Positions 22,950 through 49,525 of a DNA stretch of 64,000 bases are shown here, one piece after another (the stretch's first letter is position 1; every line of letters starts with the position of its first letter). Source of the stretch: Paracoccaceae bacterium (GTDB taxonomy: Bacteria; Pseudomonadota; Alphaproteobacteria; Rhodobacterales; Rhodobacteraceae). The notes under the pieces are model-generated. The model was not told the DNA's origin. It worked only from the letters and a program-made list of their open reading frames with translations, and made no database searches. The DNA is taken from assembly GCA_020832655.1 (NCBI GenBank), contig JAFIEF010000006.1, positions 21,811-85,810 of the forward strand. The letters are read 5' to 3'. The position numbers were made by a program, and so were the translations under genes.

Positions 22950-24212
22950 TCAGCCATCACTTTCCGGCAGAACGAAAACCTGGCCGGGATAGATAAGATC
23001 AGGATTTCGGATCTGGTCGCGATTGGCATCAAAGATGCGCATGTAGCGCATACCGTCGCCATAACGATCCACCGACATGCCCCAAAGCGTGTTGCCGGGC
23101 TGCACGATCAGCGCCTGCGGGCCAGCGCTTTCGCGCGCGATTTCTGGGGTGACACGCTCAAAGGGGATTTCGGCGCGCGAAACCACCTGCTGGGCCTCAT
23201 CCAGCTCGTCAATGCGCAAGCGATAGACGCCACGCTCGATCCCGGCCAATTGCGCCTGCCAGTCACCGGCCGCGCCTGCGCGGGTGCGCAGGATGGGTTG
23301 GTTGTCCAGATAGATTTGCAACTCATGGCCCGCCCCGGCGGCGCGTCCGCCCAGCGCAACCTCGCCTTCGTCATCATAGACAACCGAGTCGATGATGACG
23401 TTTCCAGCCCCCCCTGTCTGGGGCAGGCCGGGGGCTTCGCCCAGAACCTGCACTGTGCCATCGGCGCGCATCAGAACTGCCATTGGCGCTGGCTGGGGGT
23501 CGAGTTCGGGGCGCGGCGTAGCTGCGGCCTGCGCCAGATCCTCGTCAGCTTTCGGATCGGACCCGGCGGCAATGCCCTCGGCCGATACCATGCTGTGGGC
23601 ATCAAGCTGTGGCCGCGAGGGGGCGCTGGCGGTGCCGGGAAACAGGGGGTCGGTCTGCACTTCGCGCAGGCTCTGCACAGGTTGGGTCTGGCCGTCCGGG
23701 GCGATCTGTCCGGCCAGAACCGGGCTGCGCGGGGCCAGCATCAGCGTATCGAGTGACCGCACGCGCTGACCGCTGGCCAGTTGTACCTCCAGTTCCAGAA
23801 CGCGCGGGGCCGGGCTGGGGGCGATTTCGAACATCATCACGAATTCGCCTGCATCGCTGCTGATCGTGCGCGCGACCTGTTTTTCCTCTATCAGCGCCGC
23901 GACAGTGCTGCGCGCTGGCGCCTGTCCTGCAATCAGCACATCGCCCAGATCGGTCACGCGGACCAGATCGAAGCGCGGTGCGGCATCGCTGGCGGGGCCG
24001 GCCATTGCCAGACGCAATTCGGGGGCAATATCGGCAGCAGGGTCTGCTCCGGGCTGCGGTTCGGTCATCGAAATCGCGCTTGGAGCCTTCAGTTCAGGTT
24101 CCGGCGGGGCCGAAGGAAAGATCACGACATAGGCGACCGAGGCCGCCCCGACCACGGCCACAGAACCGACGGCCCATTGCGCCAGTGTTTCCTTGGGCAT
24201 GAATTTCAACAT
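22950..24212 (-). CDS. LysM peptidoglycan-binding domain protein
   Basis: C-terminal QALIVQPGNTLWGMSVDRYGDGMRYMRIFDANRDQIRNPDLIYPGQVFVLPESDG (LysM); N-terminal TM segment. Confidence 0.85.
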   Translation of the reverse strand: MLKFMPKETLAQWAVGSVAVVGAASVAYVVIFPSAPPEPELKAPSAISMTEPQPGADPAADIAPELRLAMAGPASDAAPRFDLVRVTDLGDVLIAGQAPARSTVAALIEEKQVARTISSDAGEFVMMFEIAPSPAPRVLELEVQLASGQRVRSLDTLMLAPRSPVLAGQIAPDGQTQPVQSLREVQTDPLFPGTASAPSRPQLDAHSMVSAEGIAAGSDPKADEDLAQAAATPRPELDPQPAPMAVLMRADGTVQVLGEAPGLPQTGGAGNVIIDSVVYDDEGEVALGGRAAGAGHELQIYLDNQPILRTRAGAAGDWQAQLAGIERGVYRLRIDELDEAQQVVSRAEIPFERVTPEIARESAGPQALIVQPGNTLWGMSVDRYGDGMRYMRIFDANRDQIRNPDLIYPGQVFVLPESDG

Positions 24213-34201: not shown

Positions 34202-35815
34202 GTGCAGAATATTCAGGCGCTCTGGTCGGCGCTGGACAATCGCAAGCGCATGATTGTCGGCGGGGCCGCGCTGGTCACGATACTGGCGGTTCTGGGCATT
34301 GCGCGCATGGCGGCCACACCGGGCATGGCGCTGCTATATTCGGGGCTGGAAGATGCCACTGCGGGTGAGGTGATTCAGGCGCTGGAATCGCGCGGCGTGC
34401 GCTACAGCGTGCGGGGCGATTCGATTTTCGTGCCCGGCCCGCAGCGTGATGAAACCCGGCTGATGCTGGCCGCGGCCGGGCTGCCCGCCAACACGCATTC
34501 CGGCTATGAGCTGCTTGATTCGCTGTCGGGTTTCGGCACCACCTCGCAGATGTTTGATGCCGCCTATTGGCGCGCGAAGGAGGGCGAACTGGCGCGCACC
34601 ATCGCAGCCAGCCCACATATCCGCACGGCGCGGGTGCATATTTCGCAAGGGGTCAGTTCCGCGTTTCGCCGCGATGTCGCGCCTTCGGCCTCGGTCACGG
34701 TGACGCCGGTCTCGGGCATGCTGACCCCGCCTCAGGCGCGCGCGATTCGCTTTCTGGTGGCCTCGGCCATTGCGGGGATGGCACCCGAAGATGTCTCGGT
34801 AATCGATGGTGCGGGCGGTTTGGTCTATGGTCCGGAATCAGAGGCCACGCCCCATGCCGCAGCCGCTGATCGCAGCGCGGAACTGCGCCGCAGTGTCGAA
34901 CGGCTGCTGGAAGCGCATGTCGGGCATGGGCGCGCGGTGGTAGAGCTGAGCATCGAAACCGTGACCGACCGCGAGGTCATTCACGAACGCCGCGTGGACC
35001 CCGATTCGCGCGTGGCGATCAGCACCGAAAGCGAAGAAAATGAAAGCAGCACGCAGGACACGCGCAGCGCGGGCGTGACCGTGGCCAGCAACCTGCCCGA
35101 TGGCGAGGCGGCGGGCGCTGACGGCAACGCGCAAAGCCGCGACAGCCAGACCCGCCAGCGCATGAACTACGATATGTCCGAAACCCGCCGCGAGATAGAG
35201 CGACTGCCCGGTGCCATCCGGCGAATCAGTGTCGCGGTGCTGATCGACGGGGTGCAGGAGACCGGGGCGGAAGGGGCACCGCAATGGCGTCCGCGCAGCC
35301 CTGAAGAGATGGAGGCGCTGCGCGAGCTTGTTGCCTCGGCAGTCGGGTATGACGCGGCGCGCGGCGATGTCATCACCCTGCGTTCCCTGCCATTCGAGCC
35401 GGTCGCGGTGCTGGGAACCGCCCCGCCAGAGGGGCTGTTTTCCGGGGCAGGGCTGGATCTGATGACCGTGCTGAAATGGCTGTTTGCGCTGGTCTTTCTG
35501 ATCGTGCTGTCGGTGTTTGTTCTGCGCCCGATGCTGCGCGCGGCGTTGCAGGCCAATGGGTCTGGCCCCACGCGCTATCTGCCTGATGAGGCCGGCTTCG
35601 GCCCGATGGAAGGGCAGGCCGCGCTTGCGCGGGTACAACCCCCAGCGCTGCGCGGGCAGTCTGTCGAAAGCTACGCCCCACCAGCTGACGCCCCCGACCC
35701 GGTCGAGCGGTTGCGCAATCTGCTGGCCGAACGCCAGCAGGAATCGGTCGAATTGCTGCGCCACTGGATCGAGGATGCGCCGCGCCCCCAAAATGACCGC
35801 CAGCCGAGGCCATGA
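34202..35815 (+). CDS. fliF: Flagellar M-ring protein FliF
   Basis: MALLYSGLEDATAGEVIQALESRGVRYSVRGDSIFVP; YELLDSLSGFGTTSQMFDAAYWRAKEGELARTI; C-terminal TM. Confidence 0.93.
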   Translation: MQNIQALWSALDNRKRMIVGGAALVTILAVLGIARMAATPGMALLYSGLEDATAGEVIQALESRGVRYSVRGDSIFVPGPQRDETRLMLAAAGLPANTHSGYELLDSLSGFGTTSQMFDAAYWRAKEGELARTIAASPHIRTARVHISQGVSSAFRRDVAPSASVTVTPVSGMLTPPQARAIRFLVASAIAGMAPEDVSVIDGAGGLVYGPESEATPHAAAADRSAELRRSVERLLEAHVGHGRAVVELSIETVTDREVIHERRVDPDSRVAISTESEENESSTQDTRSAGVTVASNLPDGEAAGADGNAQSRDSQTRQRMNYDMSETRREIERLPGAIRRISVAVLIDGVQETGAEGAPQWRPRSPEEMEALRELVASAVGYDAARGDVITLRSLPFEPVAVLGTAPPEGLFSGAGLDLMTVLKWLFALVFLIVLSVFVLRPMLRAALQANGSGPTRYLPDEAGFGPMEGQAALARVQPPALRGQSVESYAPPADAPDPVERLRNLLAERQQESVELLRHWIEDAPRPQNDRQPRP

Positions 35816-45816: not shown

Positions 45817-46500
45817 ATGTCGATCTGGAAACGAATTGCCGAAGCGCTGAAAGCCTTGCGCAAGGGCGAAAGCCTGAGCGCGGTGTTCGACCATTTGCGC
45901 CAGCGCCCCGAACGCAGCGTGGCCTTCACCATCGCGGTGATCGCGCTGGGGGCGAAGCTGGCCAAGGCTGACGGGCTGGTCAAGCGCGGCGAGGTCGCCG
46001 CGTTTCGCCGTGTCTTCACCATCCCGCCTGACGAAGAGGCAAATGCCGCGCGGGTGTTCAATCTGGCCCGGCAGGATGTCGCGGGCTATGATCTTTATGC
46101 GCGCAAGATCGCGGCGATGTTCCCGCCGCGCGACCCGGTGCTGATGGATCTGATGGAAGGCTTGTTCGAGGTGGCGATGGCGGACGGGGTGTTCCATCCC
46201 GCCGAGGAAAGCTTCCTGCATCATGTGGCGCAGATTTTCGGGCTGACAGAGCGTTGCTTTCGCTGTCTGCGCGCGCGCTTTGTCGGCGATGTCGCGCCTG
46301 ATCCTTATGATGTGCTGGAAGTTTCGCCCGATATGGCGCTGGATCAGATCCGGCGCGTCTATCGGCAGGCGGTGCGCGACACGCATCCCGACCGCATGGC
46401 CGCGCGCGGTGTCCCGCCAGAGGCGATCCGGCTGGCCGAGCACCGGCTGCGCGATGTGAACCGCGCCTGGGAAGAGATTCAGACCAGCCGCGCAGCGTGA
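45817..46500 (+). CDS. DjlA-like TerB plus DnaJ domain protein
   Basis: TerB-like N-domain (AVIALGAKLAKADGLVKRGEVAAF), C-terminal J domain DPYDVLEVSPDMALDQIRRVYRQAVRDTHPDR (HPD). Confidence 0.9.
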   Translation: MSIWKRIAEALKALRKGESLSAVFDHLRQRPERSVAFTIAVIALGAKLAKADGLVKRGEVAAFRRVFTIPPDEEANAARVFNLARQDVAGYDLYARKIAAMFPPRDPVLMDLMEGLFEVAMADGVFHPAEESFLHHVAQIFGLTERCFRCLRARFVGDVAPDPYDVLEVSPDMALDQIRRVYRQAVRDTHPDRMAARGVPPEAIRLAEHRLRDVNRAWEEIQTSRAA

Positions 46501-46513
46501 GCGGCTGAGCCTG

Positions 46514-47768
46514 CTACTCCATCTCGTCACTGTGACGCAGGGCCAGCCTGCCATCGTCCAGAAGTTCGCGGATATCCGCCATGATGCTGGCTGCGGCCTT
46601 GTCCTTCTGCGCGCGGGCCGGGGCGGGCAGCAACGCGGCATCTTCGCGGATGGGTTCGGCCATACGCTTGGAGATATTGGCCAACAGAAATTCCACCGCC
46701 GGCTTGTCCTCGGCATCGTCGGCGGCGATGACGGTCATCAGATCATCGACCGAGATCGCCTTGACCAGCACCGACACCTGCTTCGGATCGATGCGCTCGG
46801 GGATGTCGGGAAAGGTGAAGATGGCCTTGCGCACGCCTTCGGCAAAGCCCTGGTCACTGTCATGCAGCCCCGCCAGCAGGCTTTCGCGCAAATCCGGCGC
46901 GGTGAAATTCAGGATATCGCCAACGCGCTTGGTCGGGGGCTTGGCAAAGGCGCGGGCAGGGCGATTGTCAAGTTGCTGGGCAAGGGCCGAACCGATAATG
47001 GTGACGGCTTCGGGGCGAATTCCCTCTATTCTGGAAACGGCAAGCGCAAGTTCCTGCGCGGTCTGGGGCGGCAGGCGTGCCAGCAATGCCGCGGCCTTTT
47101 CAATCGCCAGCTTGGACAGCAGCACCGCGCCCACTGATCTGCTTTCGGCCTGCAGCAGGGACAACAGATCATCTTCGCCTGCCGTGTTCAGCACATGCCA
47201 GGGGTCGTTATCAGCCACGCCGCGCGCACGCGCACGCAGATGCCGCGCGGCATCATCATGCAGCCGCCCGTCCAGCATTGCCAGCGCCCCTTCCAGCCCG
47301 TCAGGAAAGGACAGGCCGACCTGTTCCAGCATCTCGACAAATTCGGCGATCACCGCATCCAGCGTGGCGCGGTCCACCAGACGCAGGCTGCCCAGATCTT
47401 CGGTCAGGCGGGTCTGCATCTCGCGCGGCAGACCGGCTAGCGGGATATCCAGCCCTTCAGCCAGCAGGAACCTGACGATAATCGCCGCCTTTTGCGGCCC
47501 TGTCAGATGGACGGTGCGGCCGCGCTGTTGCGGGGCCGGAGTATCGCGCGCGTCGGCTGGCCCGCCAGGGGCATCGGCGCGCGCGCCGCGGCGCGGTGGG
47601 GGGGGGGTGATCGCATTGATGGGCTTTAAGGGAATCAGCTAGGGGGGCGGCTTCGGGGGTTGGGGGGGGTGGGGGGGGGGGGGGGGGTGCGGGGGGGGGG
47701 GGGGCGGGCCGGGGGGGGCCCCCCCCCCCCGCGCCGATGCGCGTTGCGGGGAGGGTCATCTCATTCAT
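46514..47768 (-). CDS. fliG: Flagellar motor switch protein FliG; N-terminus interrupted by apparent assembly artefact at 47589-47736
   Basis: FliG middle/C domains: DPWHVLNTAGEDDLLSLLQAESRSVGAVLLSKLAIEKAAALLARLPPQ...TKRVGDILNFTAPDLRESLLAGLHDSDQGFAEGVRKAIFTFPDIPERIDPKQVSVLVKAISVDDL...FLLANISKRMAEPI; N-term LTGPQKAAIIVRFLLAEG in frame upstream; MNEMTLPATRIGA start beyond the artefact. Confidence 0.82.
47589..47736. other. Poly-G/poly-C block: G-degraded duplicate of adjacent sequence, probable assembly artefact
   Basis: ggtgatcgcattgatgggctttaagggaatcagctaggggggcggcttcggggg aligns base by base with ggtcatctcattcatggcatttcaggcaatcagctagggcgtcgcattcgggtt at 47755 on, mismatches mainly to G; followed by long G runs then C run. 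Confidence 0.9.
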
Positions 47769-47925
47769 GGCATTTCAGGCAATCAGCTAGGGCGTCGCAT
47801 TCGGGTTTCGGGCCGTTTCCACAAGGATCGCGGCAGGGGGCTTTTGGTCTTCCGTCAGGAAGATCTGCTTGTGCTCGACAATGCACCCAAAGCGTCAAGA
47901 AAGTCTTGATGCAGCGCAGGGAATG

Positions 47926-48220: not shown

Positions 48221-49525
48221 TTATGTGTCGAAAACCCGGCTGAAGATGGTTTCGACATGTTTGGTGTGGTAATCGAGATCAAATTTCGAGCGGATTTCCT
48301 CTTCGCCGAGCGCGGCGCGGACATCCGTATCGGCCAGCAGCTCTTCCAGAAAATCGCGGCCCTGTTCCCACACCTTCATCGCATTGCGCTGCACCAGGAC
48401 ATAGGCGTCCTCGCGCGACACACCGGCCTGGGTCAGCGCCAGCAGCACGCGCTGCGAATGGATCAGCCCGCGGAACTTGTTCATATTGGTGATCATGTTG
48501 TCGGGATAGACCACCAGCTTGTCGATCACCCCGGTCAGGCGCGCCAGCGCGAAATCCAGCGTCACTGTGGCATCGGGGCCGATCATGCGCTCGACCGAGG
48601 AATGCGAAATGTCACGCTCATGCCACAGCGCCACATTCTCCATCGCCGGTATCACCGCCATACGCACCAGCCGCGCAAGGCCAGTCAGGTTTTCGGTCAG
48701 CACCGGGTTGCGCTTATGCGGCATCGCGCTGGAACCCTTCTGGCCTTTGCTGAAAAACTCTTCCGCTTCAAGCACTTCGGTACGTTGCATGTGGCGGATT
48801 TCTATGGCGATGTTTTCAATGCTGGATGCAATCACACCCAGCACCGCAAAGAACATCGCATGGCGGTCACGCGGGATGACCTGCGTGCTTATAGGCTCTG
48901 GCTGAAGGCCCATCTGCGCGCAGACATGCGCCTCGACCGAGGGGTCGATATTGGCGAATGTGCCGACTGCGCCGGAAATCGCACCCGTGGCAATCTCGGC
49001 GCGCGCGGCGTGCAGCCTCTCGCGGTTGCGTTTCATTTCGGCATAAAACCGCGCGAAGGTCAGGCCCATTGTGGTGGGTTCGGCATGAATGCCGTGGCTG
49101 CGCCCCATGCGGATGGTGAATTTATGCTCCATCGCGCGACGTTTCAGCGCATCAAGCAGCGCATCCATATCCGCCAGCAGCAGATCGGCTGCGCGCACAA
49201 GCTGCACATTGAAGGTGGTGTCCAGCACATCCGAACTGGTCATGCCCTGATGCACAAAACGCGCTTCTTCCTGTCCGATGATTTCTGCCAGATGGGTCAG
49301 GAAGGCGATGACATCATGTTTGGTAACGGACTCGATTTCGTCGATGCGGGCGACATCGAATTGCACATCCCTGGCTTTCCATACCGCTGCGGCGCTTTCA
49401 GTGGGGATCACGCCCAGCTTGGCTTGCGCATCACAGGCATGGGCTTCAATCTCGTACCAGATGCGAAACTTCGTCTCGGGCGACCAGATGGCGACCATGT
49501 CGGGGCGGGAATAGCGCGGGATCAT
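48221..49525 (-). CDS. purB: Adenylosuccinate lyase
   Basis: MIPRYSRPDMVAIWSPETKFRIWYEIEAHA; KGQKGSSAMPHKRNPVLTENLTGLAR. Confidence 0.97.
   Translation of the reverse strand: MIPRYSRPDMVAIWSPETKFRIWYEIEAHACDAQAKLGVIPTESAAAVWKARDVQFDVARIDEIESVTKHDVIAFLTHLAEIIGQEEARFVHQGMTSSDVLDTTFNVQLVRAADLLLADMDALLDALKRRAMEHKFTIRMGRSHGIHAEPTTMGLTFARFYAEMKRNRERLHAARAEIATGAISGAVGTFANIDPSVEAHVCAQMGLQPEPISTQVIPRDRHAMFFAVLGVIASSIENIAIEIRHMQRTEVLEAEEFFSKGQKGSSAMPHKRNPVLTENLTGLARLVRMAVIPAMENVALWHERDISHSSVERMIGPDATVTLDFALARLTGVIDKLVVYPDNMITNMNKFRGLIHSQRVLLALTQAGVSREDAYVLVQRNAMKVWEQGRDFLEELLADTDVRAALGEEEIRSKFDLDYHTKHVETIFSRVFDT

Follow-up and report, generated by a model that had tools for sequence, protein, structure and literature searches.

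A 148-base G/C block in the assembled fliG of a Paracoccaceae bacterium is almost certainly a sequencing and assembly artefact

The fliG gene of this Paracoccaceae bacterium was interrupted in the assembly by a block of G and C runs which, judged from sequence comparisons, is almost certainly an assembly artefact and not real DNA, the real fliG being intact. The window analysed, that is, the whole stretch of DNA examined here, comprised the final 64,000 bases of contig C11 in an assembly of 3.24 Mb and 121 contigs. Direct reading of the sequence placed the block at 47589-47736 (148 bases), as the sequence-only reading had done, and it contained all four of the longest homopolymers found anywhere in the window (G17, G14, C12, and G10). 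The features concerned are the following:

46514-47588, minus strand: main, 3' portion proposed for the real fliG; the 301-aa ORF has FliG_M, FliG_C, and FliG_N, the last from profile position 33; FliG of congeners 47-56% identical
47571-47588, plus strand: the 18 bases that the left flank contributes to the 22-nt palindrome of the seam (GCATCGGCGCGCGCGCCG followed by ATGC), and the last clean ones; the remaining 4 bases are 47737-47740
47589-47663, plus strand: putative degraded, mostly G-miscalled copy of 47737-47811, from the match at shift 148 and the G-biased errors
47664-47718, plus strand: G-run tail (runs G17, G14, and G8; background identity to the right flank), where the signal would have been lost and the calls are nearly all G
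47719-47730, plus strand: C12 run, presumably the G tail, on the minus strand, of reads that entered from the right; C at 5' and G at 3' contig ends prevail in the assembly
47731-47736, plus strand: GCGCCG, by direct sequence a second reading of 47583-47588 (the end of the left flank) and part of the 148-nt excess
47737-47768, minus strand: proposed real 5' end of fliG (MNEMTLPATRIG), with the start at 47766-47768 or a nearby ATG; frame continuous after joining 47588 to 47737
48221-49525, minus strand: purB, the conserved upstream neighbor of fliG; every congeneric locus compared has it in this position, at 88-96% identity

The left part of the block resembled the sequence to its right. In a gapless comparison at a shift of 148, positions 47589-47660 agreed with 47737-47808 at 54 of 72 bases, against a background for 72-base comparisons on both strands of the window of about 20 matches on average (s.d. 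3.9) and 39 of 72 at the best other place. Mismatches in this degraded copy were mainly to G (14 of 18), and 30 of its 34 non-G bases agreed with the right flank. In the two-colour dye code C carries one label, T the other, A both, and G none (PMC11140927); among the first 62 bases of the copy, 14 of the 15 errors corresponded to the loss of a single dye or of both (C>G 7, T>G 4, A>C 2, and A>G 1). Identity to the right flank, followed in 15-base windows, stayed at 10-13 of 15 up to position 75 and then dropped to background (4-6 of 15); past about 75 bases the copy consisted of 13-14 G per 15 bases. The earlier claim that the block is a G-miscalled duplicate thus held, on the match, the bias of the errors, the interior replicates, and the G/C blocks at many contig ends. 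The copy does duplicate the right flank as claimed, with its onset moved from 47731 to 47737, since the stretch from 47731 includes the shared GCGCCG anchor.

Joining 47588 to 47737 gave an open frame (MNEMTLPATRIGARADAPGG...HLTGPQKAAIIVRFLLAEG...) of 368 codons with its stop at 46514. As assembled, the fliG frame had no start codon (ATG, GTG, or TTG) after the preceding stop and ahead of the FliG N-domain, and the longest callable ORF was therefore 46514-47419 (301 aa). Coverage of Pfam FliG_N extended from profile positions 33-104 in this assembled ORF to 2-104 in the joined product, the E-value passing from 5.5e-15 to 6.4e-22, and the joined 368-aa protein scored 78.6, 52.0, and 62.5 bits for FliG_N, FliG_M, and FliG_C, respectively, all above cut-off. 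Removal of the block thus restores fliG, as had been proposed, with an uninterrupted frame and nearly all of FliG_N. Compared with the known FliG motor switch protein (PF14842, PF14841, and PF01706), the joined product has all three domains, whereas the assembled gene is devoid of a start and of the first third of FliG_N; the fliG of the real genome is expected to show no difference from known FliG. Variable fliG leaders similar to that of the joined gene were found in congeners (e.g., MDMISSENTPLPATRP at locus L087).

The relatives compared belonged to Roseibaca and Natronohydrobacter (Rhodobacteraceae) and were represented by 35 loci from 29 congeners, six of the loci coming from a second collection and apparently corresponding to the same genomes. 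Between the stop of purB and the N-domain of FliG there were 411-540 bases in the 29 congeners, as compared to 714 here in the assembled sequence and 566 without the block, a value still 26 nt over the largest one among congeners. A lengthened gap between purB and fliG was found in none of the congeneric loci compared, nor was any homopolymer tract seen in the fliG of these relatives, whose frames were all open from the start codon through the N-domain. The claim that the two flanks are truly adjacent is in agreement with these data, given that purB lies upstream in all 29 congeners and that the spacing comes near the congener range only when the block is left out. These results also bear on a false join, in which flanks that are not genomic neighbors would have been bridged through shared poly-G and poly-C. 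Such runs can in principle link unrelated contigs and many ends in this assembly have them, but over some 75 nt the left side's degraded tail agrees with the right flank, the joined flanks provide an open fliG frame with a full FliG_N, and the order purB-fliG was kept in every one of the 29 congeners. A false join of distant contigs is therefore largely refuted, as the left tail continues into right-flank sequence and the gene order is conserved, and we give it next to no credence. As a separate observation, fliG diverges fast in the 29 congeners, at 47-56% identity next to 88-96% for purB, and the DnaJ-like gene downstream of fliG (45817-46500) had no match among the congeneric loci fetched.

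Blocks of this kind occurred throughout the assembly. Counting both strands, 49 bounded runs of 12 or more G were found at 30 sites; 23 of these sites lay no more than 250 bases from a contig end, in a zone that represents at most 1.9% of the assembly. Several contigs begin with 34 to 53 C or finish with about 50 G. Read outward, the end runs were G over 683 bases, vs. 199 when read inward, with the outward sense prevailing at 16 of 22 sites (sign test 0.026), which is the pattern expected from reads losing signal on a two-colour instrument. This distribution argues against a real insertion, in which part of the fliG 5' region would have been duplicated in tandem and G and C tracts would then have expanded, for example as a phase-variable off-switch. 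In such a reading the copy would be a direct repeat at a fixed shift, as is indeed seen, and a length of 148, not being divisible by 3, would switch the frame. However, the same blocks cluster at contig ends assembly-wide in unrelated sequence, the errors of the copy are nearly all dye-loss calls, the copy fades to pure G, two unrelated loci share the shift of 148, and a fading copy of the opposite flank is not a feature of tracts generated by slipped strands. Tandem duplication and a phase-variable tract were thus rejected on the genome-wide clustering at ends together with the dye-loss pattern; a real insertion has a negligible probability in our estimation, and a G/C-tract switch toggling fliG by gain or loss of the 148-nt imperfect duplicate is just as implausible.

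In the artefact reading that we favor, short reads arriving from the left would cross the palindrome GCATCGGCGCGCGCGCCGATGC, after which their fluorescence would drop. On a two-colour instrument, the type suggested by the error pattern, lost signal would be called G, so that the downstream sequence would be copied with rising G errors and finally as pure G. Reads from the right would fail likewise, their G tails appearing as C on the plus strand, and the assembler would have retained and apparently merged both tails, thus adding the 148 false bases to fliG. On the real chromosome 47588 would adjoin 47737, up to the register of the GC repeat, and fliG would be an intact gene of 368 codons. Neither the exact register nor the instrument type affects the conclusion that this block does not represent real DNA. 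The previous proposal of low-quality G tails joined at a contig junction was supported, and is here refined to an apparent merger of a G tail and a C tail whose join sits within a contig without N's.

The joined flanks form a perfect 22-nt GC-rich palindrome, whereas the longest other perfect palindrome in the window has 16 nt, and the hairpin of the left flank reaches -21.3 kcal/mol (DNA parameters), a value attained by none of 1,500 random sites (p about 0.0007). The register of the seam was inferred from the frame, the palindrome, and the shift. The block might be an artefact with its true seam off by a few bases, depending on the number of GC units, in which case the 368-codon frame would be inexact; the seam falls in the repeat GCGCGCGC and sequence alone cannot set the register to the base. 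This is improbable, if less so than the alternatives discussed above, as the joined register is in frame and produces the perfect palindrome, and the shift of 148 holds without gaps from base 3 of the copy onward. Higher Illumina error rates have been reported in association with inverted repeats and with GC-rich motifs, including GGCGGG (PMC4719071); the fliG seam, a GC-rich palindrome, resembles these cases, although the reported errors are found in reads and here the block survives in the final assembly. The GC-rich palindrome or hairpin probably caused the failure of reads at the fliG seam.

Six other interior G/C blocks were found outside the window in the same assembly: L024 (G000:C20 near 41,500), L026 (C21 near 9,840), L028 (C33 about 23,700-23,760), L040 (C85 near 86,580), L042 (C89 near 9,940), and L048 (C111 near 49,500). 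Each of them probably hides a false insertion. Two of the six, L028 and L048, presented a clear degraded duplicate. At L028 its shift was 148, the same as in the fliG block, and the errors were not mainly to G, with C>A and G>T being prominent; since this mix differs, miscalling was not uniform and signal loss was not the sole error at that site. L048 was the mirror image, with the copy at the right, miscalls to C, and a shift of 139, the C miscalls being as for reads on the opposite strand. The seam palindrome of fliG, sought in the other loci, had no match. Strong structure beside the seam (p<0.05) was detected at 4 of the 7 interior blocks and in 4 of the 23 contig-end flanks, and was not significant as measured at L028, L042, and L048. 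Structure being present at only part of the blocks, a hairpin is not established as the general cause of all of them, and the cause proposed for fliG is considered probable at this site and is not a demonstrated general rule.

PolyG tails are a known problem of NovaSeq and NextSeq data and are trimmed by fastp and Cutadapt (PMC12527978). The blocks described here resemble these two-colour Illumina tails in being mostly G on outward reads; they differ in having been left untrimmed and assembled into contig ends and seven interior sites, and some of the sites have a fading copy of the true sequence before the G run. A congeneric genome showed at locus L094 a hairpin, a degraded copy, C37, and a clean copy in sequence. 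In the sample of the family, runs of at least 30 G were present in 44 of 298 genomes, several of the listed runs starting at the first base of a contig, and surveys of gene loss, frameshifts, or homopolymers should for this reason first screen for such blocks. The significance of the finding is one of data hygiene only, with nothing biologically new: at least seven suspect G/C blocks lie within contigs of a genome rated 100% complete, and the one in fliG makes an intact gene look truncated. A congener assembled into six contigs has, within one of 3.77 Mb, a run of 20 G without a duplicate (L088), which may be real.

The idea of a purB-linked fliG in a genome without flagella was also considered and dropped, as FliF (window about 34,316-34,825) and flagellin are present in this genome and FliM was missed in most congeners too. 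Pfam FliM (PF02154) had no match in this genome and in most congeneric genomes, where FliM is perhaps divergent. Four genomes (G003, G040, G043, and G045) encoded, besides a recognisable FliM, a distant second FliG, and G007 had FliM with the distant FliG only.
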